Shown in pieces: positions 820-25,763 of a stretch of 32,736 bases of DNA. Numbering within the stretch: position 1 is the first letter of the stretch; each line of letters begins with the position of its first letter. A program made the translations under genes and the position numbers. Source of the stretch: a virus. The notes under the pieces are model-generated. The model had not been told where the DNA came from and did not search any database. It saw nothing but the letters and a program-made list of their open reading frames with translations. The stretch is from positions 1 through 32,736 of the IMG/VR virus record IMGVR_UViG_3300025395_000020; one strand, 5' to 3'.

Positions 820-828
820 AGGACTGTG

Positions 829-4160: not shown

Positions 4161-4166
4161 AGCGGC

Positions 4167-4184
4167 GTGAAAGTTGTTCCCTGA
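4167..4184 (+). CDS. Five-codon uORF in the WhiB leader
   Basis: GTG AAA GTT GTT CCC TGA encodes fMet-Lys-Val-Val-Pro at the predicted 5' end of the leader transcript. It ends 12 bases before the terminator stem. An ORF this short is unlikely to make a functional peptide, but translating ribosomes there could influence folding of the downstream hairpin. The evidence is positional only. Confidence 0.35.
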   Translation: MKVVP

Positions 4185-4196
4185 ACCCGCGAATGA

Positions 4197-4221
4197 GGCT
4201 GCCTTTGTGGCAGCCTTTTTT
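4197..4221 (+). terminator. Intrinsic terminator in the WhiB leader
   Basis: GGCTGCC (4197-4203) pairs perfectly with GGCAGCC (4209-4215) across a five-base loop and runs directly into six T. It lies between a strong -10 box and the WhiB start, so it should end a transcript of about 55 bases unless antitermination occurs. The product could be a small RNA or an attenuated leader. Confidence 0.85.
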
Positions 4222-4245
4222 GTATCCGAAAGGCTTCCCTCGTCG

Positions 4246-7809: not shown

Positions 7810-8400
7810 ATGACCAACCTTACCATCACAGATTCAATCGCGGAGATCGCTGCACCGTCACCAAAGGTAACGGGCGGCGTTCTGTATGCGCCCCTCGGCA
7901 CGCCGCTGCCGAACGACGCAACCAGCCCCCTCGACGCGGCTTTCGTGACCCTCGGGCGCACCAGCGCTGACGGTATCGACAAGACCGAAGAGCGCAAGAC
8001 CACGGATGTGTTCGACTGGGGCGGCAACCTGGTCGCCGTGCTGCAGGACAGCTTCTCCATCATGCTGAAGTTCAAGCTGCTGCAGCTCATGAACGCCGAC
8101 GTTCAGTCCGCTGCCCACGCTGCGGCCAACGTGACCGTCACCCCGGCGACCAGCACGAACGGCACCGAGATCAAGTCGGTCATCAACGCCGCGCAGCTGA
8201 ACACCGGCATCTGGGTCATCGACGCCTACTACGAGAAGATGTCGATGCGGTTCGTTGTTCCGCAGGGTCGTCCCGTGAGCGTCGGGCCGGTCAAGTGGGT
8301 TAACAAGGAACTGGCGATGTACGAGCTGACCGTGCGCCCGTTCCCGGACGGCGACAACAACCACGCGTACGAGTACTGGAACGACGGGGTTACGGCGTAA
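7810..8400 (+). CDS. Major tail (tube) protein
   Basis: This 196-residue protein should form the stacked hexamer rings of the tail tube. It follows the connector genes, immediately precedes the chaperone genes and is preceded by a strong GGGAGGAAA site. The sequence is beta-rich, with a LGRTSADGIDKTEERKTTDVFDWGG segment split around residues 56-80 and FSIMLKFKLLQ, both typical of tube proteins in which early strands line the lumen. SMRFVVPQGRPVSVGPVKWV and ELTVRPFPDGDN close the barrel. Codons are strongly C-ending, as in the capsid gene, matching very high expression. Confidence 0.9.
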   Translation: MTNLTITDSIAEIAAPSPKVTGGVLYAPLGTPLPNDATSPLDAAFVTLGRTSADGIDKTEERKTTDVFDWGGNLVAVLQDSFSIMLKFKLLQLMNADVQSAAHAAANVTVTPATSTNGTEIKSVINAAQLNTGIWVIDAYYEKMSMRFVVPQGRPVSVGPVKWVNKELAMYELTVRPFPDGDNNHAYEYWNDGVTA

Positions 8401-8483: not shown

Positions 8484-8918
8484 ATGACAGTGGCGACTAC
8501 GGCTAAAGCACCAGCGAAGCGCACTACAGCCCGTAAAGCGACTAGGAAAACTAGCGAGACTGCCGCTCCGCGCAGTGTCGATGTCAATGAAGCGCCGGCC
8601 GAAATCCAATTGCCGAAAACGCATCCGATTTACGGCACCAAGAAGCTTTACTACTACCATCCCAAAGACGGCTCCGAGCCGATCATCTTTCCGCACATTT
8701 CCACGTGTCGGCCCACTGCATTGTTCTTCTATGAGAACCGAAACGTGGACGAGATGCATCAGGCATTCGCGTGGATGGATTTATGCGAGATTCCGACCTC
8801 GATCGGTAGGCGACTTTTCCTGCTTCCGGATGAGGAGCAGGGGGAACTGCTACGCCAGTGGTTCGGTGGGCTGAACCTGACCCCGGCTCCGGAGGTGAGT
8901 CCGCCGGGGGAATCGTAA
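8484..8918 (+). CDS. Tail assembly chaperone (G-type product)
   Basis: This 144-residue protein is the upstream frame of the chaperone pair that coats the tape measure during tail assembly. It starts after a good AAGGAG site. Residues 1-35 are a Lys/Thr/Ala-rich low-complexity tail. The folded part (about 45-135) holds KLYYYHPKDGSEPIIFP and a run of helices, FFYENRNVDEMHQAFAWMDL, ending in LLRQWFGGLNL. It ends at TAA 8918, only six codons after a GGGGGAA run, where part of the ribosomes should slip to make the longer product. Confidence 0.9.
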   Translation: MTVATTAKAPAKRTTARKATRKTSETAAPRSVDVNEAPAEIQLPKTHPIYGTKKLYYYHPKDGSEPIIFPHISTCRPTALFFYENRNVDEMHQAFAWMDLCEIPTSIGRRLFLLPDEEQGELLRQWFGGLNLTPAPEVSPPGES

Positions 8919-9337
8919 TGCTGGCGCGAGTGGTCGGCCAGCACTGGTTCCCTCTAGTGCGTGATGTTCTGTCTTTGGGGTACAAAACCGAAGACATGTT
9001 CACAACGTTGAGCGTCGCCGAAATGGTAGCCATTGTTCAGGCTGCCCCCCCAGATTCCAGCATTAGGTTCTTCATGGATGGCGGCTGGACCCGCACTGAT
9101 CATTTGCTTGCCAACATGCAGGAAGATAATGCCGGTTTAGCTAATTTGTCTAGCCCGTATGAGCGTCCGGGTGTCGAGGAGGAGGATCTCGGTGACCCGC
9201 GGAAGATGTTCGGCGGTAAGTCATCGGAGATGACGTGGGAAGAAGCCGCGGAGCGGGATAAAGAACGTTACGCGGCTGCGGCCAGGATGGCTGAGCAGGG
9301 CATTAAACCTAAAAATACTCGCGTGAGGACGCTGTAA
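8484..9337 (+). CDS. Tail assembly chaperone, -1 frameshift product (GT-type)
   Basis: The product is join(8484..8909, 8909..9337), about 284 residues. The downstream frame (minus one relative to the first) opens before the stop of the first ORF and runs to 9337 without a plausible independent start. After slippage the junction reads SPPG-GIVMLARVV. The added T-part has a helical domain (GQHWFPLVRDVLSLGYKTEDMF, split around residues 150-171) and an acidic, charged C-terminus with MTWEEAAERDKERYAAAARM. Chaperone pairs made by -1 slippage are a conserved feature of long-tailed phages. Its stop overlaps the tape measure start (TAATG). Confidence 0.88.
8906..8912 (+). promoter_or_regulatory. -1 ribosomal slippery site GGGGGAA
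   Basis: The heptamer is read G-GGG-GAA in the first frame, and G-GGG can re-pair perfectly after a one-base backward shift. It is the only evident slippery run in the overlap of the two chaperone frames. The A-site codon re-pairs less well (GAA to GGA), so slippage could be modest. Confidence 0.75.
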
Positions 9338-12300
9338 TGCCTGGGCCTACTGCGGAAAACCCCGGAGCTGAAGGCGAAGTTGGCGTAGCCAGTGTCGATG
9401 CCAACCAATACATCACTGTTCAAGCTTCTGCTGCAGGACTTTCAACGCACCTAGCAGAGGCTACTCAAGCCGAGATCGAAAAAGCCGGCGAAGACGGAAA
9501 AAAGCTCGTCGCCAAAAAGGGTAAAGAAATTCAGGACGCTATTGCTGACGTTGCAGTGGCAGGTGCGGAAGAACTTAAGGAAACCGTTGAAAAACTCGGT
9601 TCGGTTATTTCCTTCAACGTCTCAGACGTTATCACGAAAAAAGATATCACTAAACTTAAAAAACAAATTAGCGAAACCCTCGCCGCCGCCGCAGAAGCCG
9701 CTTCCCAGGGTCTTCCTGTGGTTGGAAAAACAGCAGGTACGGTTATTGCAGACGCCGCTGGTGATGGCATCAAGGACAGCAATAGTATTCCGTCGGCTAT
9801 TCAAGGAAAGACCAGGGAAGCGGCGGTAGCGGCCGAGGATACGGCCCATGCAACTGGGCAGCATATTTCTCAAAGTGCTGGTCAAGGAGTTTCGCAAAGG
9901 ACGGATATTGCCGACGGTCTTGTTGAGCAAGTTGCGTTAGCCGGAAGTCAAGTTGTTCCCGCTGCTCACGATGCGGGAACAAAGGCGGCTGAAGAAGCCG
10001 CGAGGGCAATTGCTGGTAGCAATGCGCTTTCGGATTCGATGGTGACGCGGCTTCATCGCGCGATGTATGGCACGGAGGAAGCGGCAGTAAGCGGCGGTAA
10101 AAAAGTCGGCGAAAACTTTTCGCAAGCACTTACCGACGCTGCCTCAACTGCTTTACCACCTGTCGTAGAACAAAATATCAAGGACGCCGAGAAGTCCGCT
10201 GCGAGTGGGGCCGAACGGATCGCGCAGGTCGCCGCTGAGGCCAAGGAGCGCGCTGCTGCTCAGCGGCTGGTTGCCGAGCAGCGGCAGGCCGCTGAGCGGC
10301 AAACAGCTGGCGAAAAGCAGGCCGTAGAAGCCAGCAAAACCGGTGAAAAAATTGGCGATAACCTGGCACAGGGTACGGAAAACGCGGCAGCCAGGATCGC
10401 CGCTAGCCTCGCCACTGTTCGACAGAACATTTTTGAAACTTCCAAATCGGCCGAGATTTTCTCTAAGAACGTTCCGATACTTCAGGCACTCGGGCCGACC
10501 TACCTGAGGGGAGAGTCTGGCACCGGTCCGCGAAGCTATGTCAACGAGGGTGCCGCTCACGCCGCACGTTTCGAGCGAGAAAAAGCTCAGCTTTTACGGC
10601 AGTACCAAGAAGACCTTCGCGAAGCCGTTGAAGAAAGTATCAGCGAACATTATGCGGAGCTGTCAGAGAGGGGAACCTACGAGAGCTACGCCCTTCATGA
10701 CGCGTCAGTAGCTAGTGCGAAAGAAAGCTTAAATAAGCTCAAGACGACCGTAAAGCCAACCTCTACAGACAATAAAATCAACCGTAAGCAGAACGCATTC
10801 TCCGCCTCACAGCGTCGAATAATGCAGGAAGAAATCGTCAGTATTCTGTCAGAGGCCAATAGTGTCGAGGGAGAGGAACGAAAACTTCCGCGAGCCGCCG
10901 ATAGTTTTGTTAGTAGGACAGCTGTCCAAAACGATCCTGAACTCATTAATCGGCTGTTGTCCGATCCGGAAGCAGTTATTGCGCCACTCGGCCTGAATGG
11001 CGCAGCGGTTGATCGAGCGGCGGTAGATGCAGAGATAGCGAAGCTAAACAAACTTCTTGCCGAAAGTAGACCAGGACGCGGTGGTGCGCCACCGAAAAAG
11101 CAGAGAACGCAGGCCGAGATAGCCGAAATCGTCAAAAAGATTGAGACGCACGAAGCCGCGTTGGCCGAACGCGATCGATACGATAACGCAATCTCATTGG
11201 CTTCCGATTTGGAAGCGCGGCTTTTAAACCGTTTCGCAGAAACGTATCTCACGGAGGAATTCACCAAAAAACATACTCGATCCGGCTCGGATTTGATGGC
11301 CAAGCATGGTCGGATTCGTGATCTTGATGCAAAAGCATTCGACACAGCGACTCGGCAATTAAGCAACCCTCTGGGAACAGAAGAAACTCCCGCACCTAGT
11401 CAGGGGTCAATTACAAGTAAAAGCACTGATGCGGGGTCCAGGGTCGGAAAAGGAATTTATAAAGAAGCTGATTCCAATGAACCGCCTACTAATCCTTATG
11501 AAATTGTCCCTACCCGTGAAAGCGGTTACATTCGCGTAGATGAATATGCGAATGTTAGAGACAGGCTCAAAACCTTTCAGGAAATTCTCAATCGAGGTGT
11601 TCCAAATTTTGTTAAGGGAATGGATCAGCCAGATCGTAGAAAACGAAAAGGCGAGAGCGACGAAGAATATCGAGCATACAGAGAAGCGCGTGCTCAATAC
11701 GGAGACTACCAAGAAGCATTTAATGAACAAGGCCCGCTGTTAGATAGGCTACGTGAACTAGAGCCTCAGCGTCTCAATAATGTTATTGCTCAGCAGCGTC
11801 AGTTTATCGCTAAAGGTGCGGTGCCGCAGCAGCTAATTGCTTCAGCTTTCGCTAGTTCAATTCCACCGGAAGTTCTTATTCCGGAGATGAAGAAGCAGAG
11901 AGTTTTTCAACCTTTTCAGCAGGAACAAAAACTTTACGGAATGTTTTCGGATGCGATAAAAAGGGTTTCTGCTCGGTATGCGGCCGAAAGCAAAGGACCC
12001 GAATCGCTTTTCGGGCCAGAGGCGACAAGTGCAGAGGCTTTTTATGAGTGGGCGGGTTCAGCGCGCGGTGGGAATATTGTTTCTAGTCCGGATCTGGCTC
12101 GAGATTATGCCGCTAAATTAGAACGCGCTGTACAGGTCGAAGATTATTTAGATGCTATTCAAACAAAAAATTCTATTAAACAAATAGAAGAAAATATTTC
12201 GAATCTTGAAAAAGAATACAAAGTTAGTCGTGGAAAGAACCGTGAAAATAAAGCGAAAGAGTTAGATAAAAAACGATCTAGACTTGAGGCTTTGCGGGCT

Positions 12301-15300
12301 CGTTTGGCGGACCTCCCAACCGTCCTTGCTGATGATTTAGCAAAGATTGAAAAACAAACTGCGAAAGGTATTCAAAAGGAGAAGAACGACGCCCGGAAAA
12401 TAATTGAGCGCGGCAACGCGGGAAGGGAAATGACGGCGGCTACTAAAGATTCCGCCGCCAGCGAATACTACTTAGCCGTAGAGAAACGCGAGCGCCTCAA
12501 GGCTTTGCTTGACGCTGAACTTATCACGGCAGAGCAACTTGAAGCTTACGGCCCGCTTCCGCCAGAGGGAGTCCTGACCGGAGAAAATCAAGTCGGTTTC
12601 ATTGATGAGCGCCGTCCGAATGGTGAAGTTTATAAACGCATCGTCGAGTCGAAACCAGGACGGGTTCGACCCGAAGCGCGGCGCGGACTAGGATGGGAAG
12701 CGGAGCGTCGCGCGCAGATAAACATGCGCGATGAGCGAAAGGGCCTGCGTGGAACTACTTACGAAAATCCATCCGCGTCCACGGTTCGCGCTCAGCAGGC
12801 AAGCTTAGACGCGGCACGTAAACGATTCGAGGAAGAAAATGCGGAAAAACGCCTCGAGTGGGAGCAGGACTGGGCCAAAGGAAGAATCACCAGCGATTTA
12901 GTTGGTCGCGGAGTAATCGGAGACAGGGCACCAGAAGAGGTCGCCGCCGAATGGCATGCAGCCGTTTTCGGTGATAACCCAGTCAATTTTCAGTCGGCCA
13001 GCGGACTTCAGCGAACTCAAGGATTAGTTAACAGTTTCCGCGATGTCGGAGATAACCGCAAAGCCCCAAGGACGAAGGGCGAGTTCAAAAACGATTTAGC
13101 CGCGCTATTCGGGGTTCCGCAAGATACGATCGATAGATTTTTGACCACACTGAATGATAGTGCCACGAAAAATCAAAATCGATATAAAGAATATCAAGAA
13201 TCTCCCGATGCATCTATCGATGCTCAAGTCGAAAAAAAGCTTGAACAAATTAAAGGCATGGCCGATTCGGATCGTCCATACCCGATTTCATCGGAAAAAG
13301 GTCCAGTCACCGCCGGCAAAAGATATGAAGACCGTGTCCGTCAAATCGAGACACTTAAATTACTTGATGAAAGAGACAGGAAAAAGGCTCAGATAACCGA
13401 TGACAAGATGCGGGAACGGGATCTTCAGAGGCGAGTCGATCAAGAATATAAGAAGTACGAGGATTCCCTCAAGCCTGTTTCGACCGAAGGTATCGAATTC
13501 ACCGAAATTCCGGCGACCTCAAAGCTTTCACGTCAAATAAAAGCAGTATCTCCTGCTGGTAACGAAATAACTTTTCCAATTGAAAAAGATATTAGTGATC
13601 TTGTTGAAAAACAGCACCGCAAGCGACCGGTCGATCGTGAACATCCACTGGTCAGTGGCCAGCCGCAATCGTGGAACTCGGATTACGAAGAGCGTCTTCG
13701 TAATATTTATGAGAAGAAACTTCGCGGCGAGTATGCAGAGCGCCTGGCAACTTATGAAAAATTCTCCGAAGAAATTGAAAATTTAGTCACAGAAGAGCGT
13801 GGAAAAAACCCGGAGGATAGAAGATACCGTAACTTTTACGAAAAAACCCCCTCGGCTTCCGGAACAATAGAAACTACGGTTTTGCGTTCCGCCTCAGAGG
13901 TTCCTAAGGCGGCATGGGACAAGGGGGCAATCCCGCGATTTGATGAAGACACTTTCCGATCTGCGATAATTCGTGATGTCGTTCGACGCGAACGATTAAA
14001 TCCCAGCGCCGTCGATAAAGAGCTTGAAGATGCCGTAACTCTGCTGAAAAACTCTAATCGAAAAGCGGACGCCGAGAATAAACTCCGTTTCGCGGATTTA
14101 GATGATTCCGAGGAAAAAGCTAAGATAGCCGCACTTACGACGAAGCTTGCGGAGCTGCGCGATCAAGTTACCGAAAGGACCAAGAAGCAATCCCGTCGGA
14201 AAACGCCCAAGGGCGTCGCCGAAGACCAGGGTGTTATCGATTCCCTTAACGCGGAGATCGACAAAGCCGAGAGTGATATAAAAAGAATAAGTAATAGTTA
14301 TTTTGCATCCGATGCGTACAAGAAGAAGTTGCGCGAAAGTGCTATCAAACCGGTTCTGGAAAACCGTATTGTTCTGACACCAACACGACCAGCTACCGCA
14401 GAAGAATACCAAACCTATTTCGAACGCACCGTTGATGCGACTTTTGCGGGTTACAAGAAAATGGGTTTCGGGGAAGGTGACTGGGCGAAGAATGCTAAAG
14501 CTGAACTTGATGCACAGATCGCCGAACAAGAAGCGCTTAACTCTGAGATCGAGAAAAACGCGGCTGAAGAAGCCAGATTAGAAAAGACATACAGCCAGGG
14601 TCGTTTGAAGAAGGCTGAATCGATAAAATCTAACCGCGATAAGGTAAAAGATCTCCAGAAGGCCAACAAAACGCTTCGCTCACGGCTGATCGCCACGGCG
14701 GACGGCGAGACCCTAAGCGATACTCTCGCTCGGCAAATGATTGCGAAAAGAATATCTGAGCTAGATTTAGCTAGAGGAAGATCGCCCGGTGCGCTACCGG
14801 CGTCAGTTTCTGAAGAAATGATCGGCTTCTTAGGCGAACACAGGGCAAACATTGCCGAGCTTAAAAAGGCATACGACACCGGCGGCTATAAAGCCATGCG
14901 GGCTGTTTACAAAAATTCAATTCCTAAATCTAGTGAGTTACCGACACCGGGCATTGAAGTTCCGATGCCGTGGGACACTATGCGGCAGGCCGCGTCGGCC
15001 CAGCTTGCAGAAGCTATTGACGTTTCTCATGCACCAGGTGGAGATATTACGTTGCGCGCTCAAGCGCTGCTAGACCAGCAAAGCCGCAAGGCTCTTCAAA
15101 ATCTTTCTCCGCGGATACGACAAGCAATGACTGAACTCGCTACTCGAAAAGATGAGGCGGGAAACTATCTATTAGGTGACGAGCAGCTTCAGTCTTTGAT
15201 CGAGGGATATTCGGCTACCGCTTTCGCTTCTACGCAAACTCAAATGCGAGAAAAGAGCCCCGTTCCCGGCTCTCCTCGAGGTCTTCCATCGAGTTATCAA

Positions 15301-18300
15301 ACTATGGAGGCCGTTGATTCAGCTTCATTTTCGCGACGCGGCCAACGCGCGGATTCTATGCGCGGTTCGCCAACTAATCCGAACATTCCGGTAGAGAGTG
15401 TTACTGCGATCGATTTGCTGAAATCTCAAATCGAAGAAATTAAAGGGGCTATCGCGGCATCTGAACTTGATGAATCGAAGCTTCATAAAAAGTTAGATCA
15501 GCAGGTTAATGAGGAGCGCCAAGATAATGCCCGTCGGGCATCTCAAATCGCAGAAATCGACACACAAGTACTAGAGCTTCGCGAAAAGCAGGAAACACTT
15601 AAGAGGCAAGTTGCTGATCGTCGCCGTAGCGATCGCACGCGAGCCGAAATTCAAAACAAGTTAGATGCGACGGAAACAGCTATAGCGGACCTTGATGCTG
15701 CACGCGCGTCAATTATTGCTCCTGTTGATTGGACTCCACTTCACGAGCGGAATGTTCGCTACGGAAAAGCACAGGAAACAGCAAATTATGTACTTACTAA
15801 TATGGAACGAAGCCTTTCGCGCGCGACTCCGGAATGGCGTGAAAGCCAACTCGCCAAGATGGAGGAAAGGATCTCGACCGCGACTCCCGAGTGGCGTGAT
15901 CAGCAGCGAGAGAAAATAACGAAACTGAGAAAGCAAATTATTGATTTAAAAAACGCGCCGGCTATCTCCGCGCTTTTGCGTGGGCTGAGGGACGAGAGAA
16001 TCGCTGAGTCCGAAATCGCGGCAGAAGTTAACCGACTGAACGGCGATTTGGCGGGTCTTCAGGACCGGAAAACCGAATTAGAAGGAGTGTTGTCGCGCCA
16101 ACGTAAGGATCACACGAAGGCCGAGACGCAAAGTCAAATAAATCAAATTGAAGAGAAAATCGCAGTTGTACAACGCGACCTTGAAGATAAATTGTTGGCC
16201 CAGTCCGAACAGGCGCTGGCCGACAGCGTCTACGGTGTTCGATTTCCTTCTTCTCCTTTTGTGCCGAGATCTTCGACGGGAATTGGTTCGGGTCAATACG
16301 CTCCCGCTCCCGGTGGCGTAGCGCTTGCGGAATATCCGCTGCCGACCCAGGAAACATATCTCAAGGAACTTGAAACGAAACGCGTCGAGGCGAACGCGCA
16401 GTTCGCGCGTCAGATTGCCGACAAGGCCAACCAAGAATCCCGGCTGAAATTAATTTCGCAGCTCGCGCCGATTTCGGTAGGCGGTTTTGGTCAGGGACTA
16501 GGATTAGAGCTAGCGGGTAACACCCTTATCTCTGAGTACATCAGAAAAGCTACTGAAACCAAAAAGGAATTTCCCACCGTCGCGCCTATCGACAAGGAGC
16601 GTCAACAGGCACTTGAAGCTAGGCTAGCCGCAGCCCAAGCCTTTCCGCGCTCGAGTTCAGATCCTTCTACGGTTATGGAAGGAGATATTGCCCCGCTGCT
16701 TGGCGGAAGCATTGCGATTCCGAACAGGACCTTGCAGCAGATTGATCCATTAGAGCTGTCGGAGATGTACCGGCTGGCCTTAAGTACCGGACTCCCTGGC
16801 GGTTATTTAGCGCAGGCTGAGTTGCGCGGCCCGGGTGCTTCTGCAGCATCTTCCGCCTTCCGTAAAAACTATTTGCGAGAAGTTTATGAATCGGCGGGTG
16901 CTGAAGATAAGCGCCCCCTTCCGCTTCCTCCTTTAGCTGATTTGCCGCCGGAATTGCAACAAAAATTGGCCGGACTTTACGATCCGGAAGGAAAACCAAA
17001 ATTTGAACCTTATTCCGGTAACTATGGTCCCGAGGTTTTAGCTTCAACAGTTCAACGCGGGGCGGGACTTGAATCTTTGCTTACCTCCGACCTCAGTCCT
17101 AACTGGCCGAGGCCACCTCATGCGCCGCCTTTCGTGAATTTCGGTGCGGGTCCGCTCGCGCCAGAATTACGAAGTCTTCTCGCGGAGTCGGAATTTCCGA
17201 ATTCCGGAGTTCCGCCGTTGCTGCCGCCGCCTCCACCGCCCACGGGAACAGGGGGATTGCCTGAAGAACCTGAAGAACCCGAAGAGAGCTATATAGCCCG
17301 TATGGCGCGTATGCGGGCCGAGGTTGAGGCGAAAATTCGTGAAGAAACCAAAAAGCTGGTCAATATCGAGAAGGGAAAGAAGACTAACGCGGAGCGCGAA
17401 TATCCACTAGCTGACGGTAAAAAGTGGAACAAAGATCATGAAGAGAAATTGACCGCGATTTACGCAGAGCAGGTCAAACAAAAATATTTAGAGCAACTCA
17501 AAGCCTTAGAACAACAAGCCTCGACATATTTGCTGCTCAACGAACGCCAGCGAAAAATCATGGACGAGATCAACAGCCCTCAAGGCTGGCAGAAAGCTCT
17601 GGGCGGGACAGGGTCGGACTGGATTGGGCCGGCCAGGTCGGCGGTTGAAGAATTCCGAAACGCGCAAATCGAGGCGCGCAAGCTGAATCAAATTAATCTT
17701 AGTCCCGCCGGTGCTTCAAGTAATGCGGAAAGCGCTCTCCTTCAGGTGCAGCGGAGGATCTCGGAACTTCAAAATGCGAGTTCGGGGTTTGGCAGCGCCC
17801 AGGCCATTTCAAAAGCCCAGGAGTTGCTGCGCGAGTACCAAGAACAGGAAAAGGTTCTGAAACAGCAGGTCTCAACTTACTCGCAACTTAGTGCTGAGCA
17901 GCGCAGATTAACGGATTTGATGAGGAGTTCTCGGGGCCTTGGAGCGCCGTCTTCTCTATCTGCTGAGGCGGATGCTCTTAAGAAGTCGTTTGCTCAAAAT
18001 CAGCAGTTTTTGGCTAATGAGCGTGGTTGGGCTAAAAAGTTTGGGCCGTCGTGGAAAGAGGAGATTCAAAAACTCCGCGATGAGGCTTTGGGTGGTTTCC
18101 AAACCGGTTCGTCGGCGAACAACGTGTTCGCCAACATGTTGCAGCACATGGGTGGCCCGCTGGCTAAGTTCGCCCCAGTGTTACGGAGTCAGGGAACTAA
18201 CGCGGGGCAGGCATTCGCGTCGGCCCTTGAAAAGGAATTGCAAAAAGTTGGTGGCGATGCGAAGAAGCTTTCGCCGGAATCGGTTCAAGCGGCAGCTGAT

Positions 18301-21300
18301 GTCAAGATGGCCGAGATGGGTGCGGCGCGGGGAACAGCTATGGTCGGCGGCATGGCCGCGGCGATTTTGGCTGGCGCTGATTTGGTCGCTCACGACGTTA
18401 AACGTGTTGCCGAGTTGGCGCAACAAGAATTCCAAGACATTTGGAAAGTTGGGAAACAAGCTGGCGACTTTTTGATGGACTCGTTCTCTAAGGCCATTGA
18501 AGGTAAGGTTCCGGACATTACTGCGGGTCTGGGTGTTGTTCAGAGCGCGTTTGAGGGGTTCATTACAGCGCCGCAAAACTTTGCGAATGCCGCCGTGGAT
18601 ATCACGGTCGGTTGGATACCGCTTATCGGCGGCATGGTTAAAAGCATGGTTGCGATTCCCGAAATGGTTTTGAATTCCGTGTTGCCGATTTTTGACGAGT
18701 TTAAGAGTTTAGGTGGGGCGTTCGCCCAAGAGATGATCGGAATTGGAGACGAGTGGCAGGAAGCTGCTCGAAGTATAGCGGGTCAAACTTTTGACGAAAA
18801 CAATCTCGAAAGTTATCTCAATATTGTTAAAGAGATCTCATCTTCTGGCGATTTGGTGCATTTCAAAGATGTTTACGAAACTATCGGCGAGTTGCACCAA
18901 CGGTTCGTGGGTATGGGAAAGCTTTCATTGCCGCAGTTGAAAGATCTTACCCTCACCCTCGCTCAGGGTAATGAGATTTTGAATACAAAGACCAATGTTG
19001 ATCTGCTGACTGGGGCTTTCAACGACTTTAAAACCAAGCCGGAAGACGCCGCCCGCACTCTGCTGCACATGATTAATATTTCGAGAATTACTGGGACCGG
19101 CATTAATGAGATGCTTGCTCAGGTCGACAAGAGTGGACCTACTTTCGAGGCTTTAGGTTACAACCTTGAGCAGAGCATGTACCTGATGGGAAAGTTTGAT
19201 CAAGAACTCGGTAAGCCGGCTGGCGAAAGACTCAGCCTTTCGTTAGGTAATGTCACCGAACATTTGGGACAGATGGGCTTCAATGACACCGCAGAGGGCT
19301 GGAAGTACCTTATAAAAACAGTTAATCAATTTTACGAGGCGGGAAACCGTACAGGTGGTATTGACTTTTTAACTCAACTCGGAATTAAAGGAAAGGCCGC
19401 GGGCGCGGTATGGAAGTCGATAACCGAAGGGGCGATGCGCAGCGTCGAAGACCTTGAGAGAATGAAAAACGCAGAGGGCAACCTGGATCAACCGCTCAAC
19501 CCTGCTCTTGAGAAAACGCGAATGCTTAAAGACGCGATGGAGCAGCTCTCCAACTCTATGAAAGCTGCTTTTGCTGGCGTAGGGGTACCTCTCGTCCACG
19601 TCCTTGTCGAGGTTGCCGATAAGGTTCAAGAGTTTGTTGAACATAATCAGAGCAAAATTTTGGGTTGGGCGGAAACTTTCTCTGACGCAATTTTCATTAC
19701 TTTCGGTTCGATGATTACGGAAATGGGTGATGCGATTAAACAAGGAGCGCCAGCTATCAACACCTTTTTCCATCAGATGTTGCAAATGCTTCTCGAAATT
19801 GATATGGCAGCGCAAAAGTTCCTGGACGGTTGGGGTTCTTTTATTCCCGGATCTGATGTGATGAAAAAAGCGCTGGTGGATGCAACTGTTCCGATTCAAG
19901 CGGCAATGCAATTGAATATCACCGATCCCACGGCGGCGATTGGCGATGTCGTGTCAAAATTCGGGCGAGGCGCGGTAGGGGCCGGGAAAGAATTACATTC
20001 TGGTATTGAAGATCAAAAAAACGAGGCGCAGGTAAGGGAAGGATTCAGCGCAAGCTATCTCGACAAGGAAAACGAAAAGCAATTTGGTTCGCTTTTGGTC
20101 CCAGGCGCGGAGGGTTTAAAGCTCGGCGGAGATGCGGATAACAGAAAATTTGTTGTTGATCAGCTGCGGAATCTTGGAATTACATTCCCGAATGAAAAAG
20201 AGGCTATCGATACCGGAAAAATCTCTGCCATTAACACCAATAAACCGGAAACGACTCAAGCTCTCATCGGGATGCTCAACAGCGATCTACTTCCAGCGAT
20301 ACGTGAACTACATCAGGGTGAGCCCGGAGCCGAAACGAAAACCCTTCAAGACTTTTTAGGAAAAGGTCTCACTATAAATGACGGAAACACGCCACTTAAA
20401 GTTTGGATAGTAAACAAAGATGCGTCCGAACCCGGTGCAGCGGCACCGCCCGGTGCGTCGGCGTCAGGTGCGGCAACACCCAATACTCTAAGGGACGGTG
20501 GAGGTCCTGGGGCATGGGGCTACAAGGACAAGACAGGCAAATTAGTCAGTCCGTTGATGCCAACGGAACCCAGCGACGCCGAGAAGCAGAAAAGAAAAGA
20601 CGAAGGTCTAGAGGCTGTACAGTTTGATCACGCATTCCCCGCGGACGCCGCAACGGTCGCGGCGTACAACGCCGCCCACCCGTTCCAAGGCATTAGACCC
20701 CTGGATTCGATGGACGGCGTTCCCAGGAATTTGCAACCTCTTGTTCGAATTCTTAACGGATTAGGTTTTGGACCCGAAGACACTCAACGAGAGCTTAGGG
20801 AAGCCGGGGATTATCTCAGCACCCTGCCGGTGATCGACGGTGTCATGAACGCTTTCGGAATGCAAGCGCCCGACGCGCATGCTGCGGGTGGTGATATTAG
20901 TTCTGATATTGATCTTCCACCAGGTTTGACGCCGCCTAATTCGAGTGACACGATGTTGTCGTGGTTGACGCCGGGTGAGTTTGTGGTGAATAAAAATTCG
21001 TCGGCGGCTTTTCATGATGTGTTGCAGAAGATCAACTCGGCACCGCATTTCAATGCCGGAGGCGGTACGTCGTCCGTTTCGCCGTCTACTTTGCCGGGCC
21101 AGTTGGGCCTTCCCGCGATTTTGCTTGCTAGCTCGGCACCGCCACTTGACGGCCACGCTATTTTGACTAGCGCTGGCATTCCGGATCGTTATCAGAATTC
21201 GTATGTTCCGGGTTTTGGTGTTCCTGGGGTTTCGATTCCGACCGATTTGTCTACTTCTGATAAAGGTGCGAAGAAGTCTGTTCAAGAGATTATGGATACG

Positions 21301-24300
21301 CTTGGCGTGCCGTCAAATTTGCAGGACGACAAAGGGATAACGCTTCCGGTTAGCTTCTCGACCACCGGATCTCCCCTTGCTTCTTTGGGGCAGCCGGGAC
21401 AGCCTCTTTTAGCCCCGGGTCAGCCGATACCGGCGAGTGTGGACGGGGAGCATCCGCAGATCACCGCAGCCCTCATGGCCGCGCGAACGTTTGGTCTCGG
21501 CACCAGAGGGCCTGGCGTTGATTTCGCTGGAGAAAGAAATCATCCTCATGATGGGAAGCTGCACCCGCAAGGTGAGGCAGGCGACTTCTCAGGGGGCAGC
21601 ACGGAGCAAATGGATGCCTTCGCCAATGCGATGATGTCGCCGCAGTTAGTTCCGTACATTCAAGAACTTATCCGTAAAGGCCCAGGAGTCACGCAGAATA
21701 TTCTTGGCGGAAAGCTCGTCCCAGCCATCGACATGCCAGGTAGCCCATATGTGACCGGTGGTCCAAACGGCGCTGGAGACCATACCACCCATGTGCATCT
21801 TGGCGTTCTCGACAATATGGCTCAGGCGTTTGAGCAGGCGCTCGGGGCTACCGGAATACCGGCCAATCTTTCGAGTTATGCTTCTGGGGCCTCCGCCGGT
21901 TTCCCGGGTATGGGCACAGGAACTGTTGACAGTAATTTGATGTCGGCTTTGCAGAGCGCTGGCATCCCACCGGAGATGTATCCGTTGCTAGTCGGTTTCG
22001 CTAAAACAGAAGGTAATAACGGTCTCGGCATTCCGACTTTGGGTTTCAAGGATGTTCAGGCGGGAAGTACCCTTGAGGGTCATGTAATGGCTTTGGCGAA
22101 GCAGCTTCAAGATCGTCAGTCTGTTGTGGGGCCGTTCCCTGCTGGCGGAAGTCCGCAGGATCAGGCTGCGTGGATGGCCGATGTTGTGGGCCAGAATGGT
22201 GTTCAGTCGGATATTTTTGGTGAGCGTCAGCCTGCCCGCGAGGAATACATCAATAGTATTGTCAAAAATTTCGGTGGTGTACCCACCAGTTTGAGTAGTT
22301 ACACTAGCGGCGGCGCTTTGCCGCATGTGTCGCTAGTTGATTCCGTAACCAGCGACGGGGCCGGCGGAGCCGGTCCTCCCGGCAGCGATCCCGACAAAGG
22401 ACCCAAAAACGTCAAACCGCACCGAATCCGCGAAGGCGGTCCGCCGAAACCGAACGGAATTCCCGACTTGACTCCAGTTGCACCGGGAACCGAACACGCC
22501 GTCGAAACCAACGAAGGATGGTTTTTATATACGTTCAATGACCCCAACCCGGAAATCCAAAAGCTCACCGCAGAACAAAAGGCACAGATTAACGACTACC
22601 TCAAAAAGTGGGCCTCTTTAAGTAAGAGAACACAAACCAACTTAGATGAACTTGGGAAGGCTAATAAAAAACTCGACAAGCTGCAACACGCTTACGACGA
22701 AATATTGAAAAGCGGCGATATCTTACCTGATCTGCAGAAAGCAATTTCGGAAGGAAAAATAGATGAATTCCTTAACAGTACCGAAGGGGAAACATATACA
22801 GCGTCACCGACCACGCAGGGCGGAAAATGGAAAACTGCTTATGACAATCTTCAGGCCGAAAAAGATCGCATAAAGACATTACTCGGCGAAAAAGAAGACA
22901 TATATGTAGAGGAAGGCATAGCCGGCGACGACTTAGTTCAGCCGTCGAGGAGATCACCCAAAAAAGGTGAGGAGAAGTACAACACTGACGCGGAATCATT
23001 AGGCAAGGGCCTGGTCAAGGGCCTGGCGGAGGAGCTTGGTTTTGGTGATATTTTCAAGAATTTGAAAGGGGAGAATGCTAAGCCTCCGTGGGAGTGGGGT
23101 ATTTGGAAGTCGGCGATGGCTGGTATCGGTTCCGGAATTTTCGGGGATGGTATCACCGGTATTTTGTCTAAACTTTTCGGCGGTAATGATCAACAGTCCG
23201 GGCAGGGTCCGTTCGCGCCGGGAGCGTTGCCGGGTCCGGCTGGGCCGAATGGTCCGGGAAATCTGGGGCTCCCCCCGGTTTCGCCGGGAGCTCATCCGGG
23301 GGGAGCCCCAGGCGCTCATCCCTCTTCGCCTGGTGGGGCTGTCGCGCCGCATGGAAAGCCTCTCTTTACCCGCGAGGGAGGGGCTGGCGACAGTGACGAA
23401 AGCGCGCAACTTAATGAACGTGCCTACGAGCATAATGCGCAATACGCAACAAAAATGGATAGATCCGGAAAATCTTATAACACACATTTGTCGCCAGAGG
23501 ACGAAACGGCATTTAGAGCCTGGCTTAAGAGTAAAAGCATCAAAAAAGAAAGTTTTGATCCAGATAAAAGTACTAATGATTATGATATGCGGGGATTCTG
23601 GAAATATAACCATGTAGCCGCGAATGCGTTACCGGCTGAGGAGAGCCCCGATAGGCATTTTCCAGATACGTGGAAAACCCCTTTCGACACAAGTTTCTCG
23701 GGAGAATCGAACTATGCAAATTCCGCTGCAGAGTCCTTAGTCTGGGAAGGGGACAGTCTGATCAATAAAACCACCGGAGAGATCGTATATCGTCATCCTT
23801 CAGGTGATGGACCAGCTGGAACTGGAACGAGAACTATTCCCGCGCCGCCGCCGACGACCTCGACAGCGTCGCCGACCACGACTCCGACGACTTCGACACC
23901 GTCGCCGACCACGACTTCGACTCCTACCACGACTTCGACTTTGCCGACGCCACCACAATTCGCCGGATTAGGAAATCGACAACTTTCCTCGTTAATGAAA
24001 TCTTCGTCGCAAGATCAAGACTTCACGGGGAACTTTGATCCAAGAGTTAAGATTGATACATCGAATGTGACGATTTCCGACGCAGACGGTAACGTACGCG
24101 ATGGCAAGGGGAATGTAGTTCCCGGGCTTCCCGCGCCGCCGGATCGAGTCGGCAGGGTTCAACTTTCTGACTTCACAGCACCGATCGCTCCCGAGCATAG
24201 CGCTGCTACGTACGGAAATCAGGGCTGGTTAGCTTCGAAGCTCGCCGGTAAGGGTTTTTCGTCAGATGAAGTTCGTGGGATTCTTGCTTTGAACGCTGCC

Positions 24301-25317
24301 GAGGGGGGCGACGCCGATTCTAGGAGTTTGCTTGGCTTTAAGGAGGGTCAGCCTTTCGGTGATATTACTGCGACTGGCCCCGAGGGCCATTTGAATACTT
24401 TTATGAAGCAGTGGACGGACATGAGTCGGCGTCCGAATGGTCAGATTCCGGGTGTCAATTCTTTAGGTCAAGTTAATAACTGGACTCAGTTTATGACCTG
24501 GATGCGGGAAAAAATTGTCAACCAGACGGGTGTTCAAAAGGATTTCAACGGAGAAAAACAGCCGTCCGCGGAGGACTATCAAAATAGAATGATGAAGAAT
24601 CTTTGGTGGTTACCACCGAATGTTCAAGGAAAGTGGGATGGAACTCGACCAAGCGGACCGCAAGCTGGCACCCCGAATAATCCGTGGCAAGGAACCCTGA
24701 CGAGCAGAACATCGTCCGGAAATATCACTTATGGTATCGGAGATTTGGAGGGCGGCGATTCGGGTCAGGGAAATCTGGGGATAGTTCGTGATCCTAATGC
24801 GGGTAATTTCAATCCAAATGTAAGGCTCGATACTTCTCATGCGCGTTTCGGGAGTGAAGGGCCTTCTCAGTGGCAATTATTTTTGGAGCGCGCAGAAACA
24901 TATTTTCCAGATGATCCGGCGACTTTTAATGTTCCGCACACTCAAATTTTGCCGGTCCCTAAGGGTGCTCCAGGGATTCCTGTTCCGCAGGGCAATTTGG
25001 GCGCGGGGTCGGCGTTATCGGGTGCTTTGCCGATGTTGGCTCCGTTGTTGCAGCTTATTCCGGGCGGTCAGGGGCTTGGCCAGGTGGTTTTGTCGGCGGC
25101 GAATGTTTTGGGAAGCATGAGGCCGGGACAGCGTGATGAGAATGTGAATTCTGGTGGCGGTGGTGGCGGGCCTGGGACAGCTATTTATGTGGATGCTTCT
25201 AATATGATGGACCCGGCGTTTGTTGGTCAGCAAGTGGCGAAGTACGCGCAGCCTGGTACTACGCCCCAGTCTCCGCAACCTCCGTCTGAATTGGTTAGTC
25301 CGACGTTGCATTTCTGA
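9337..25317 (+). CDS. Giant tail tape measure protein (5,326 residues)
   Basis: This protein sets tail length, threads the tube and is released on infection. It is one open frame of 15,981 bases, translationally coupled to the chaperone gene. Residues 1-350 are Ala/Glu/Lys-rich helices. About 350-2,850 are charged coiled coils with repeated modules and Pro-rich breaks (near 2,400-2,650). The tape-measure core begins near 2,850, with hydrophobic segments at about 2,999-3,021 and 3,087-3,120 followed by a TP901-like helical region. At about 3,870-3,900 is the common tape-measure motif SWLTPGEFVVNK. The C-terminal part has an M15-type peptidase signature (4,076-4,154) and two lysozyme-like domains (about 4,200-4,316 and 4,957-5,095) joined by low-complexity linkers. 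At about 0.15 nm per residue it predicts a tail near 0.8 micrometre. Confidence 0.95.
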   Translation: MPGPTAENPGAEGEVGVASVDANQYITVQASAAGLSTHLAEATQAEIEKAGEDGKKLVAKKGKEIQDAIADVAVAGAEELKETVEKLGSVISFNVSDVITKKDITKLKKQISETLAAAAEAASQGLPVVGKTAGTVIADAAGDGIKDSNSIPSAIQGKTREAAVAAEDTAHATGQHISQSAGQGVSQRTDIADGLVEQVALAGSQVVPAAHDAGTKAAEEAARAIAGSNALSDSMVTRLHRAMYGTEEAAVSGGKKVGENFSQALTDAASTALPPVVEQNIKDAEKSAASGAERIAQVAAEAKERAAAQRLVAEQRQAAERQTAGEKQAVEASKTGEKIGDNLAQGTENAAARIAASLATVRQNIFETSKSAEIFSKNVPILQALGPTYLRGESGTGPRSYVNEGAAHAARFEREKAQLLRQYQEDLREAVEESISEHYAELSERGTYESYALHDASVASAKESLNKLKTTVKPTSTDNKINRKQNAFSASQRRIMQEEIVSILSEANSVEGEERKLPRAADSFVSRTAVQNDPELINRLLSDPEAVIAPLGLNGAAVDRAAVDAEIAKLNKLLAESRPGRGGAPPKKQRTQAEIAEIVKKIETHEAALAERDRYDNAISLASDLEARLLNRFAETYLTEEFTKKHTRSGSDLMAKHGRIRDLDAKAFDTATRQLSNPLGTEETPAPSQGSITSKSTDAGSRVGKGIYKEADSNEPPTNPYEIVPTRESGYIRVDEYANVRDRLKTFQEILNRGVPNFVKGMDQPDRRKRKGESDEEYRAYREARAQYGDYQEAFNEQGPLLDRLRELEPQRLNNVIAQQRQFIAKGAVPQQLIASAFASSIPPEVLIPEMKKQRVFQPFQQEQKLYGMFSDAIKRVSARYAAESKGPESLFGPEATSAEAFYEWAGSARGGNIVSSPDLARDYAAKLERAVQVEDYLDAIQTKNSIKQIEENISNLEKEYKVSRGKNRENKAKELDKKRSRLEALRARLADLPTVLADDLAKIEKQTAKGIQKEKNDARKIIERGNAGREMTAATKDSAASEYYLAVEKRERLKALLDAELITAEQLEAYGPLPPEGVLTGENQVGFIDERRPNGEVYKRIVESKPGRVRPEARRGLGWEAERRAQINMRDERKGLRGTTYENPSASTVRAQQASLDAARKRFEEENAEKRLEWEQDWAKGRITSDLVGRGVIGDRAPEEVAAEWHAAVFGDNPVNFQSASGLQRTQGLVNSFRDVGDNRKAPRTKGEFKNDLAALFGVPQDTIDRFLTTLNDSATKNQNRYKEYQESPDASIDAQVEKKLEQIKGMADSDRPYPISSEKGPVTAGKRYEDRVRQIETLKLLDERDRKKAQITDDKMRERDLQRRVDQEYKKYEDSLKPVSTEGIEFTEIPATSKLSRQIKAVSPAGNEITFPIEKDISDLVEKQHRKRPVDREHPLVSGQPQSWNSDYEERLRNIYEKKLRGEYAERLATYEKFSEEIENLVTEERGKNPEDRRYRNFYEKTPSASGTIETTVLRSASEVPKAAWDKGAIPRFDEDTFRSAIIRDVVRRERLNPSAVDKELEDAVTLLKNSNRKADAENKLRFADLDDSEEKAKIAALTTKLAELRDQVTERTKKQSRRKTPKGVAEDQGVIDSLNAEIDKAESDIKRISNSYFASDAYKKKLRESAIKPVLENRIVLTPTRPATAEEYQTYFERTVDATFAGYKKMGFGEGDWAKNAKAELDAQIAEQEALNSEIEKNAAEEARLEKTYSQGRLKKAESIKSNRDKVKDLQKANKTLRSRLIATADGETLSDTLARQMIAKRISELDLARGRSPGALPASVSEEMIGFLGEHRANIAELKKAYDTGGYKAMRAVYKNSIPKSSELPTPGIEVPMPWDTMRQAASAQLAEAIDVSHAPGGDITLRAQALLDQQSRKALQNLSPRIRQAMTELATRKDEAGNYLLGDEQLQSLIEGYSATAFASTQTQMREKSPVPGSPRGLPSSYQTMEAVDSASFSRRGQRADSMRGSPTNPNIPVESVTAIDLLKSQIEEIKGAIAASELDESKLHKKLDQQVNEERQDNARRASQIAEIDTQVLELREKQETLKRQVADRRRSDRTRAEIQNKLDATETAIADLDAARASIIAPVDWTPLHERNVRYGKAQETANYVLTNMERSLSRATPEWRESQLAKMEERISTATPEWRDQQREKITKLRKQIIDLKNAPAISALLRGLRDERIAESEIAAEVNRLNGDLAGLQDRKTELEGVLSRQRKDHTKAETQSQINQIEEKIAVVQRDLEDKLLAQSEQALADSVYGVRFPSSPFVPRSSTGIGSGQYAPAPGGVALAEYPLPTQETYLKELETKRVEANAQFARQIADKANQESRLKLISQLAPISVGGFGQGLGLELAGNTLISEYIRKATETKKEFPTVAPIDKERQQALEARLAAAQAFPRSSSDPSTVMEGDIAPLLGGSIAIPNRTLQQIDPLELSEMYRLALSTGLPGGYLAQAELRGPGASAASSAFRKNYLREVYESAGAEDKRPLPLPPLADLPPELQQKLAGLYDPEGKPKFEPYSGNYGPEVLASTVQRGAGLESLLTSDLSPNWPRPPHAPPFVNFGAGPLAPELRSLLAESEFPNSGVPPLLPPPPPPTGTGGLPEEPEEPEESYIARMARMRAEVEAKIREETKKLVNIEKGKKTNAEREYPLADGKKWNKDHEEKLTAIYAEQVKQKYLEQLKALEQQASTYLLLNERQRKIMDEINSPQGWQKALGGTGSDWIGPARSAVEEFRNAQIEARKLNQINLSPAGASSNAESALLQVQRRISELQNASSGFGSAQAISKAQELLREYQEQEKVLKQQVSTYSQLSAEQRRLTDLMRSSRGLGAPSSLSAEADALKKSFAQNQQFLANERGWAKKFGPSWKEEIQKLRDEALGGFQTGSSANNVFANMLQHMGGPLAKFAPVLRSQGTNAGQAFASALEKELQKVGGDAKKLSPESVQAAADVKMAEMGAARGTAMVGGMAAAILAGADLVAHDVKRVAELAQQEFQDIWKVGKQAGDFLMDSFSKAIEGKVPDITAGLGVVQSAFEGFITAPQNFANAAVDITVGWIPLIGGMVKSMVAIPEMVLNSVLPIFDEFKSLGGAFAQEMIGIGDEWQEAARSIAGQTFDENNLESYLNIVKEISSSGDLVHFKDVYETIGELHQRFVGMGKLSLPQLKDLTLTLAQGNEILNTKTNVDLLTGAFNDFKTKPEDAARTLLHMINISRITGTGINEMLAQVDKSGPTFEALGYNLEQSMYLMGKFDQELGKPAGERLSLSLGNVTEHLGQMGFNDTAEGWKYLIKTVNQFYEAGNRTGGIDFLTQLGIKGKAAGAVWKSITEGAMRSVEDLERMKNAEGNLDQPLNPALEKTRMLKDAMEQLSNSMKAAFAGVGVPLVHVLVEVADKVQEFVEHNQSKILGWAETFSDAIFITFGSMITEMGDAIKQGAPAINTFFHQMLQMLLEIDMAAQKFLDGWGSFIPGSDVMKKALVDATVPIQAAMQLNITDPTAAIGDVVSKFGRGAVGAGKELHSGIEDQKNEAQVREGFSASYLDKENEKQFGSLLVPGAEGLKLGGDADNRKFVVDQLRNLGITFPNEKEAIDTGKISAINTNKPETTQALIGMLNSDLLPAIRELHQGEPGAETKTLQDFLGKGLTINDGNTPLKVWIVNKDASEPGAAAPPGASASGAATPNTLRDGGGPGAWGYKDKTGKLVSPLMPTEPSDAEKQKRKDEGLEAVQFDHAFPADAATVAAYNAAHPFQGIRPLDSMDGVPRNLQPLVRILNGLGFGPEDTQRELREAGDYLSTLPVIDGVMNAFGMQAPDAHAAGGDISSDIDLPPGLTPPNSSDTMLSWLTPGEFVVNKNSSAAFHDVLQKINSAPHFNAGGGTSSVSPSTLPGQLGLPAILLASSAPPLDGHAILTSAGIPDRYQNSYVPGFGVPGVSIPTDLSTSDKGAKKSVQEIMDTLGVPSNLQDDKGITLPVSFSTTGSPLASLGQPGQPLLAPGQPIPASVDGEHPQITAALMAARTFGLGTRGPGVDFAGERNHPHDGKLHPQGEAGDFSGGSTEQMDAFANAMMSPQLVPYIQELIRKGPGVTQNILGGKLVPAIDMPGSPYVTGGPNGAGDHTTHVHLGVLDNMAQAFEQALGATGIPANLSSYASGASAGFPGMGTGTVDSNLMSALQSAGIPPEMYPLLVGFAKTEGNNGLGIPTLGFKDVQAGSTLEGHVMALAKQLQDRQSVVGPFPAGGSPQDQAAWMADVVGQNGVQSDIFGERQPAREEYINSIVKNFGGVPTSLSSYTSGGALPHVSLVDSVTSDGAGGAGPPGSDPDKGPKNVKPHRIREGGPPKPNGIPDLTPVAPGTEHAVETNEGWFLYTFNDPNPEIQKLTAEQKAQINDYLKKWASLSKRTQTNLDELGKANKKLDKLQHAYDEILKSGDILPDLQKAISEGKIDEFLNSTEGETYTASPTTQGGKWKTAYDNLQAEKDRIKTLLGEKEDIYVEEGIAGDDLVQPSRRSPKKGEEKYNTDAESLGKGLVKGLAEELGFGDIFKNLKGENAKPPWEWGIWKSAMAGIGSGIFGDGITGILSKLFGGNDQQSGQGPFAPGALPGPAGPNGPGNLGLPPVSPGAHPGGAPGAHPSSPGGAVAPHGKPLFTREGGAGDSDESAQLNERAYEHNAQYATKMDRSGKSYNTHLSPEDETAFRAWLKSKSIKKESFDPDKSTNDYDMRGFWKYNHVAANALPAEESPDRHFPDTWKTPFDTSFSGESNYANSAAESLVWEGDSLINKTTGEIVYRHPSGDGPAGTGTRTIPAPPPTTSTASPTTTPTTSTPSPTTTSTPTTTSTLPTPPQFAGLGNRQLSSLMKSSSQDQDFTGNFDPRVKIDTSNVTISDADGNVRDGKGNVVPGLPAPPDRVGRVQLSDFTAPIAPEHSAATYGNQGWLASKLAGKGFSSDEVRGILALNAAEGGDADSRSLLGFKEGQPFGDITATGPEGHLNTFMKQWTDMSRRPNGQIPGVNSLGQVNNWTQFMTWMREKIVNQTGVQKDFNGEKQPSAEDYQNRMMKNLWWLPPNVQGKWDGTRPSGPQAGTPNNPWQGTLTSRTSSGNITYGIGDLEGGDSGQGNLGIVRDPNAGNFNPNVRLDTSHARFGSEGPSQWQLFLERAETYFPDDPATFNVPHTQILPVPKGAPGIPVPQGNLGAGSALSGALPMLAPLLQLIPGGQGLGQVVLSAANVLGSMRPGQRDENVNSGGGGGGPGTAIYVDASNMMDPAFVGQQVAKYAQPGTTPQSPQPPSELVSPTLHF
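13630..17508 (+). repeat. Duplicated coiled-coil module in the tape measure
   Basis: Two segments about 1,250 residues apart are clearly related. Residues about 1,432-1,475 (from 13630) read VDREHPL, then SWNSDYEERLRNIYEKKL and YAERLATYEKF. Residues about 2,684-2,725 (from 17386) read NAEREYPL, then KWNKDHEEKLTAIYAEQV and YLEQLKALEQQ. Shorter repeats occur too: ATPEWR at residues 2,163-2,168 and 2,182-2,187, and several basic-turn coiled-coil hairpins (near 570, 1,601, 2,088 and 2,248). This indicates growth of the N-terminal rod by internal duplication. Confidence 0.7.
21448..21840 (+). other. M15-type zinc peptidase domain within the tape measure
   Basis: Residues about 4,039-4,168 of the tape measure contain H-PQ-G-E-A-G-D (4,076-4,083), matching the HxxGxAxD signature of M15-like peptidases (VanX/VanY and related cell-wall carboxypeptidases). 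About 70 residues later comes THVHLGV (His 4,152 and 4,154), giving the third zinc ligand. The first His and the Asp are the other ligands. All three expected ligands are present, so the domain is probably active and would cut peptidoglycan peptides during genome entry. Confidence 0.7.
21934..22284 (+). other. Lysozyme-like domain A within the tape measure
   Basis: Residues about 4,200-4,316 form a helical domain with FAKTEGNN and LGIPTLGFKDV, then LEGHVMALAKQL, and NGVQSDIFGERQPAREEYIN at its end. Glu 4,225 in the first helix is the likely catalytic acid by comparison with lysozyme/transglycosylase folds, in which a Glu ends a helix just before a Gly-rich loop. It aligns with domain B (24205-24620) along its length. 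The family assignment is inferred from the pattern, not proven. Confidence 0.5.
23842..23955 (+). repeat. Thr/Ser/Pro mucin-like linker
   Basis: About 38 residues (4,836-4,873) consist almost only of Thr, Ser and Pro, in the pattern PTTTSTPTTTST. The DNA is correspondingly repetitive (recurring TCGCCGACCACGACTTCGAC-type units). It separates the Pro/Gly-rich and polar segments from lysozyme-like domain B. Such linkers are flexible and are favoured O-glycosylation sites in actinobacteria. Confidence 0.8.
24205..24621 (+). other. Lysozyme-like domain B within the tape measure
   Basis: Residues about 4,957-5,095 carry GILALNAAEGGDADSR and SLLGFKEG, then PEGHLNTFMKQWTDM, and TGVQKDFNGEKQPSAEDYQN. 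The matches to domain A fall in the same order: E-G near the first helix, LGFK, EGH, NGVQ or TGVQ, GExQP and Y-x-N. Glu 4,989 aligns with Glu 4,225. It is flanked on both sides by related strands, NFDPRVKIDTS (near 24028) and NFNPNVRLDTS (near 24805), suggesting that a cassette was duplicated. Confidence 0.5.
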
Positions 25318-25352: not shown

Positions 25353-25763
25353 ATGGCGAGCAAGAAGGTCGTTGAGGATGTCGCCGAGGATGCCGTAGTT
25401 GAAGATGCTGCGCCGGTTCGGCGTGCGCCGGCGACGGTGCAGAAGCATGAGGATTGGTATTTGGTTACTTATGGTGGGTGGCAGATTAGTGTTGCGCCGG
25501 ATGGGTTGATTATGTTGCCGAGGCATCTTGAGCATGGTGATGTGGATGATTTTGTGGGGTGTATGGCGGTGGCTCGTGATGTTGCTGCGACGGTGGTGGC
25601 TTCTCATCATAAGTTGCAGTTGGCGGCTCAGGATAGGGTGGGCTTGTCGTCTCGTCGGGCGATTTTGAGTCAGGGTGGTCCGCCTGAGGGTGCTGTTCGG
25701 ATGCGTTCGGTGAGTGCGCAGCAGCGGTCTTCGGTGATTGGGCGGGCTAGGGGTGGTTCGTGA
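25353..25763 (+). CDS. Small tail-region protein, 136 residues
   Basis: ATG 25353 follows AGGAG (25341-25345) by seven bases, so it is preferred over an upstream GTG at 25347. The N-terminus is charged and low-complexity (Lys/Glu/Asp/Val/Ala). Residues 30-95 form the likely folded part, with DWYLVTYGGWQISVAPDGL and HGDVDDFVGCMAVARDVAATV. The C-terminus is basic and flexible. Small proteins of this kind commonly follow the tape measure in actinobacteriophages, but I cannot name a function. The stop overlaps the next start (GTGA), so it is in the minor tail operon. Confidence 0.75.
   Translation: MASKKVVEDVAEDAVVEDAAPVRRAPATVQKHEDWYLVTYGGWQISVAPDGLIMLPRHLEHGDVDDFVGCMAVARDVAATVVASHHKLQLAAQDRVGLSSRRAILSQGGPPEGAVRMRSVSAQQRSSVIGRARGGS

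Follow-up and report, generated by a model that had tools for sequence, protein, structure and literature searches.

The window analysed here, the whole of an IMG/VR metagenomic contig, is 32,736 bases long, is classed as linear and is probably a fragment of a genome. Its + strand carries, in order, genes for a major capsid protein, a WhiB-type regulator, a head-tail adaptor that matches PHROG 442, a major tail protein, a chaperone pair and a tape measure protein (TMP), and these are followed on the 3' side by a small open reading frame, a Dit-like protein, a Gp37-like protein and further tail genes (Table 1). The regulator gene (4174-4521, +; PF02467, E 3e-26) lies amid the head and tail genes, and an HNH endonuclease gene on the other strand (7255-7764, -; PF13392, E 7e-12), probably that of a homing endonuclease, overlaps the end of the gene preceding the major tail protein. 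Within the overlap of the two chaperone frames, GGGGGAA at 8906-8912 is a possible -1 shift site, non-canonical when set against the XXXYYYZ heptamer. At 31427-32734 (+), the open-ended frame of a tail protein that contains collagen-like Gly-Pro stretches and repeat units ending in TFGGQTTSALAYNADGPT is cut off by the contig end.

The first-pass annotation had described one uninterrupted frame of 15,981 bases coupled to the chaperone gene, and both parts of this description held. The frame at 9337-25317 (+) starts with ATG and runs through 5,326 codons to a TGA, with no N and no internal stop, and its codon-position composition is coding-like over the full length. The chaperone pair lies directly upstream, its stop codon sharing one base with the TMP start (TAATG, 9335-9339), and a GAGGA ribosome-binding site at 9325-9329 stands seven bases 5' of that start.

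This frame encodes a single tape measure protein of 5,326 residues. We base the assignment on a PhageMin_Tail match (PF10145, residues ~3177-3412; E 6e-7, 29.9 bits, just below the curated cut-off of 33.2), a PHROG tape-measure match and a match to the family core HMM (E 2e-169, the window sequence being the seed of that model). The gene also holds the canonical position, directly after the frameshifted chaperones and before the Dit/Gp37-type tip genes, and the identity proposed on first reading is upheld. Three hydrophobic, membrane-like segments occur at residues 2999, 3089 and 3408 (hydropathy over 1.5).

The closest isolates are the Mycobacterium phages Bipper, Typha and prophiGD43A-5 (capsid 52-55%, Gp37 about 45% and Dit-like 41% identity), whose homologous capsid, tail and tip genes keep the same order. 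Since these nearest isolates are mycobacteriophages, the host is very likely an actinobacterium; the WhiB gene likewise agrees with the earlier suggestion of an actinobacterial phage.

Toward its C terminus the protein carries a cell-wall-hydrolase-like module (47.7% to the LilSpotty TMP, 52% to the StAugustine TMP) that also matches TMPs of other Mycobacterium, Gordonia and Rhodococcus phages. The H-x2-G-x-A-x-D ... H-x-H columns are invariant in the module alignment, and we take them to be an M15-type peptidase motif. A module of ~120 residues occurs twice, and its first copy had no match in isolate phages. The TMPs of relatives hold SLT or Rpf-like transglycosylase domains, and peptidoglycan-hydrolysing motifs are known in mycobacteriophage TMPs (PMC1796659).

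Table 1. Features of the window, with positions counted from its first base; residue numbers refer to the TMP.
Feature	Position	Strand	Evidence or remark
Major capsid protein	826..2277	+	PF05065; 52-55% identity to Bipper, Typha, prophiGD43A-5
Major tail (tube) protein	7810..8400	+	PHROG 117, E 6e-41
Tail assembly chaperone, first frame	8484..8918	+	PHROG 3656
Tail assembly chaperone, -1 frame extension	8858..9337	+	PHROG 3656/1326; 1-base overlap with TMP start
GAGGA site and TAATG stop/start overlap with chaperone frame	9325..9339	+	Sequence
TMP gene (5,326 aa in one frame)	9337..25317	+	Frame, TMP domain and family core HMM
Codons for ITVQASAAGL, residues 26-35	9412..9441	+	Counterpart of relatives' N-terminal tip motif
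Putative insert, residues ~350-2,880 (bounds approximate)	10384..17974	+	Charge-rich, helix-predicted, homologue-free in searches
Helical-hairpin repeat copy 1, residues 552-619	10990..11193	+	Weaker: 7.6 bits; 100 local shuffles reach at most 3.2
~100-residue repeat, copy A, residues 1390-1493	13504..13815	+	E 2e-9
Helical-hairpin repeat copy 2, residues 1580-1654	14074..14298	+	Repeat search; AF2 pLDDT about 80
Helical-hairpin repeat copy 3, residues 2050-2125	15484..15711	+	Repeat search; AF2 pLDDT 80-91
Helical-hairpin repeat copy 4, residues 2211-2290	15967..16206	+	Repeat search; AF2 pLDDT about 75-83
~100-residue repeat, copy B, residues 2646-2743	17272..17565	+	Match to copy A
Conserved TMP core incl. 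PhageMin_Tail, residues ~3026-3488	18412..19800	+	PF10145 and family core HMM
Cell-wall-hydrolase-like module, residues ~4063-4190	21523..21906	+	H-x2-G-x-A-x-D ... H-x-H motif
~120-aa module copy 1, residues 4198-4318	21928..22290	+	Internal repeat
~120-aa module copy 2, residues 4965-5094	24229..24618	+	Internal repeat
Dit-like minor tail protein	25760..26908	+	PHROG 106
Gp37-like tail protein	26905..28860	+	PF14594, E 1e-39

Relatives and the position of the extra length

Relatives were found and placed with the Dit-like protein as query. Searches of IMG/VR returned 53 loci with this protein, 15 with the TMP core and 80 with Gp37, in overlapping sets; a search with a single core protein returned no relatives, and scans of genome contigs confirmed no prophage relatives. 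The TMPs of about 30 distinct IMG/VR relatives with a matching tail module range from 654 to 3,394 residues. None above 3,394 residues was met in the Dit-like, core and Gp37 searches, and none of the 15 loci from the alignment-based core search has a longer N-terminal arm.

In the tree of Dit-like proteins, the window pairs with L005 (IMGVR_UViG_3300013093_000001; 74% identity, support 100/99), which has a TMP of 2,100 residues, and is then joined by L017 (2,344) and L018 (2,643); a neighbouring clade has TMPs of 704-964 residues. The loci L006, L007, L008, L019-L022, L029 and L063 are a closely related clade with TMPs of this length, in which a PhageMin_Tail-type core went undetected apart from a marginal match in L006. 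The one from L007, which was scanned, holds an Rpf-like transglycosylase domain.

Among relatives with the core covered from near its start, an iterated core HMM places that start at residues 48-751, compared with residue 3,026 in the window. From the core onward the window protein has 2,301 residues, against 2,027-2,590 in near relatives, a range that L011 alone exceeds (3,314). Because 3,026 residues precede the core where relatives have 48-751, and the part from the core onward is ordinary, the excess length, judged by these alignments, is wholly N-terminal to the core.

The extreme N terminus resembles that of the relatives. A tip motif (e.g., VDVAASAAGI or INVAPKMSGL) stands at residues 8-46 of 19 relatives' TMPs, and the window protein has a counterpart at residues 26-35. 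The pattern was found nowhere else in the window or relative TMPs compared and is expected 0.0005 times per shuffled window protein, having been written after the sequences on both sides had been viewed; a profile HMM of the tip gave a weak score of only 0.9 bits. Given a tip-like motif at the N terminus and an intact family core, there is a good but not conclusive sequence-based case that the block was inserted between tip and core within one gene, rather than two genes having been fused. The TMP family itself is already well known. The new element is the source of the length, which the first-pass annotation had not noticed: ~2,500 N-terminal residues that are absent from every relative.

Composition and predicted structure of the putative inserted block

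Of residues 1-2,285, 32% are charged, with local values of up to 44%, compared with 16-19% for whole TMPs of relatives. Amphipathic helical periodicity is strong on both sides of the block (residues 1-350, z 10.5; residues 2,900-3,650, z 13.5) and is weak or absent between residues 350 and 2,900, with z from about -0.4 to 2.4. Third-codon G+C in residues 351-2,350 also departs from that of the C-terminal half, with a z of -3.75 after allowing for amino acids. Of valine codons, GTG accounts for 3% in residues 351-2350 (10387-16386) and for 20% in residues 2881-5326, and of leucine codons, TTG accounts for 13% and 31%, respectively; alternative start codons are therefore rare inside the block.

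Two kinds of repeat were detected in the block, a ~75-residue unit in four copies and a ~100-residue unit in two. When residues 350-1400 and 1500-2650 were modelled with AlphaFold2 (AF2) from sequence without an alignment, the models contained helices, almost no strands and no compact domain, at a mean pLDDT of about 46. Within them, helical hairpins with pLDDT of 75-91 appear near residues 1590-1660, 2050-2126 and 2220-2290, and a further helical stretch lies near residues 940-1030. A Foldseek search with the second of these models, the one fragment so compared, yielded nothing with an E value under 0.5.

No homologue of the block turned up when 50,697 phage records were searched with tblastn, when IMG/VR was scanned with peptide patterns (six short peptides per scan), among PDB sequences or in Pfam, NCBIfam and PHROG, and the block is absent from all relatives' TMPs that were compared. 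Within the collections that these searches cover, the block is new. An N-terminal RNA polymerase found no support, the 5,326 residues containing no D.D.D (DxDxD/DFDGD) match and the block no family match. With regard to a two-barrel polymerase fold, the low-confidence models show helices and almost no strands.

Tail length and the role of the block

Chaperones coat a tape measure protein, which starts tube growth at the tip and brings it to a stop at its own N-terminal, head-side end (PMC9022992, PMC5099701). We propose that an ordinary TMP of this lineage, consisting of an N-terminal tip, an amphipathic arm, a PhageMin_Tail core, cell-wall enzyme modules and a C-terminal tail-tip end, would have gained ~2,500 residues after the tip and ahead of the core. 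The protein would attach by its C terminus to the Dit/Gp37 tip complex while chaperones coat the chain, and the tube protein would polymerise around the TMP until its N terminus, so that added residues lengthen the tube. The block would be located in the tube lumen and would add length.

Several siphoviruses show how TMP size translates into tail length. Phage TM4 has a TMP of 1,229 residues and a tail of 200 nm (0.163 nm per residue), and deletion of a 114-residue enzyme motif from this TMP shortens the tail by ~20 nm. In TP901-1, a tail of 118 nm corresponds to 0.145 nm per residue over ~810 of the 937 TMP residues, and N-terminal deletion or duplication changes tail length in proportion to residues. 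The TMP genes of Katyusha (9,084 bp, 3,027 residues) and of Hotorobo and Monty (9,984 bp, 3,327 residues) go with tails of ~500 nm and ~540 nm, respectively (PMC4982279, PMC4919401). P23-45 has a tail of over 800 nm with a TMP of 5,002 residues, the N-terminal part of which is an RNA polymerase. Scaled from TM4, Katyusha and Hotorobo, a TMP of 5,326 residues would give a tail of about 870 nm, similar to or longer than that of P23-45/P74-26. The predicted range is about 670-880 nm when the scale is varied from 0.126 nm per residue, the TP901-1 value with every residue included, up to 0.165 nm; if the ~2,500-residue block is left out, the predicted tail would be about 360-465 nm. The tail near 800 nm put forward in the first-pass annotation is likewise a prediction.

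We think it somewhat probable that the block acts as a ruler, lengthening the tail of an actinobacterial siphovirus, and we favor this view since the enzymatic portions of other TMPs seem to contribute to tail length. Caution is due because of the hairpins and the absent amphipathic periodicity: a chain that doubles back in the predicted hairpins would span a shorter distance for each residue, and the block is carried by no relative that could lend it comparative support.

The block could instead be cargo fused into the TMP, either injected or acting in the cell, with the other ~2,800 residues mainly setting a tail length of about 360-465 nm. We consider this rather unlikely, although in P23-45 a giant TMP does have an enzyme joined to its N terminus, the block stands apart from the remainder in its charge, its codon use and its helical periodicity, and the other ~2,800 residues by themselves make up a TMP of the size typical for this lineage. 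Against these points, the whole protein lacks the RNA polymerase DxDxD signature, sequence searches of the block against Pfam, NCBIfam, PHROG and PDB were negative, and the alignment-free models are helical, almost strandless and without a compact domain, the one fragment searched with Foldseek having no significant match. Furthermore, the internal enzyme motif of TM4 still added length, so cargo and ruler are not exclusive. A broader version, in which the block with its duplicated helical hairpins is an undescribed virion cargo delivered to the host by a tail ordinary for the lineage, or is both ruler and cargo, is likewise rather unlikely.

That the block is translated and then cleaved before or during assembly, and so would serve the mature virion neither as a ruler nor as cargo, seems improbable. 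TMP processing is known in lambda, where gpH is converted to gpH* at the C-terminal end, but we found no protease site or precedent for the removal of ~2,500 N-terminal residues, and TP901-1 without the N-terminal 30 residues forms no plaques. An assembly artefact, whether a metagenomic chimera that put foreign coding DNA into the TMP or a fusion of two genes, is the least credible reading: the record is linear, metagenomic and 32.7 kb long, and the block is in no relative and differs somewhat in codon use, but both joints would need in-frame, stop-free junctions over ~2,500 codons, a tip-like motif before the block and the core after it fit a simple two-gene fusion poorly, the chaperone coupling is intact, and the block shares sequence with no phage or virus record searched.

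The ruler reading would predict a tail of record length, ~0.7-0.9 micrometre, and the cargo reading a new passenger protein inside the tail. Within one lineage with closely related tube and Dit-like genes, TMPs run from about 700 to 5,326 residues, and our literature search found no report of such a seven-fold spread within one closely related tail module. This series offers a natural test of whether each residue of the ruler adds to the tail, even those in a block that is un-ruler-like, and also bears on how tape measure proteins grow.

Comparison with known tape measures

The nearest tail modules in the Dit-like tree, those of L005, L017 and L018, differ from the window in having TMPs of 2,100, 2,344 and 2,643 residues without the inserted block. 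Bipper, Typha and prophiGD43A-5 resemble it in gene order and in their capsid, Gp37 and Dit-like proteins, and the family HMM finds the TMP core in prophiGD43A-5 and in the Bipper record (L059); their TMPs, however, have 1,561-1,565 residues, with the modelled core beginning at residue ~100. The Gordonia phages Hotorobo, Monty, Woes, Katyusha and GMA7 are likewise actinobacteriophages with unusually long TMP genes and with tails of ~500-540 nm that help to calibrate length (PMC4982279, PMC4919401), but their TMPs reach only ~3,030-3,330 residues and have no match to the inserted block.

The first-pass annotation had also placed this protein at or beyond the size of the Thermus phage TMPs, and at 5,326 residues it is indeed larger than the 5,002-residue P23-45 gp96/P74-26 TMP (PMC10770324). 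No TMP above 5,002 residues was found in published reports, a comparison that covers the literature and is not a database-wide survey of lengths; the protein exceeds the largest published TMP we found, and longer unpublished ones may exist. P23-45 infects another host group, its TMP was not matched by the window protein in the phage collection, and the addition at its N terminus is an RNA polymerase that has the DFDGD motif, whereas here this motif is absent and no enzyme fold was recognised. Nevertheless, P23-45/P74-26 and the window share a TMP of more than 5,000 residues, in which a sizeable additional N-terminal region precedes membrane and peptidase-like parts (PMC10770324, PMC10034513), and a very long tail, which is known in the Thermus phages and predicted here.
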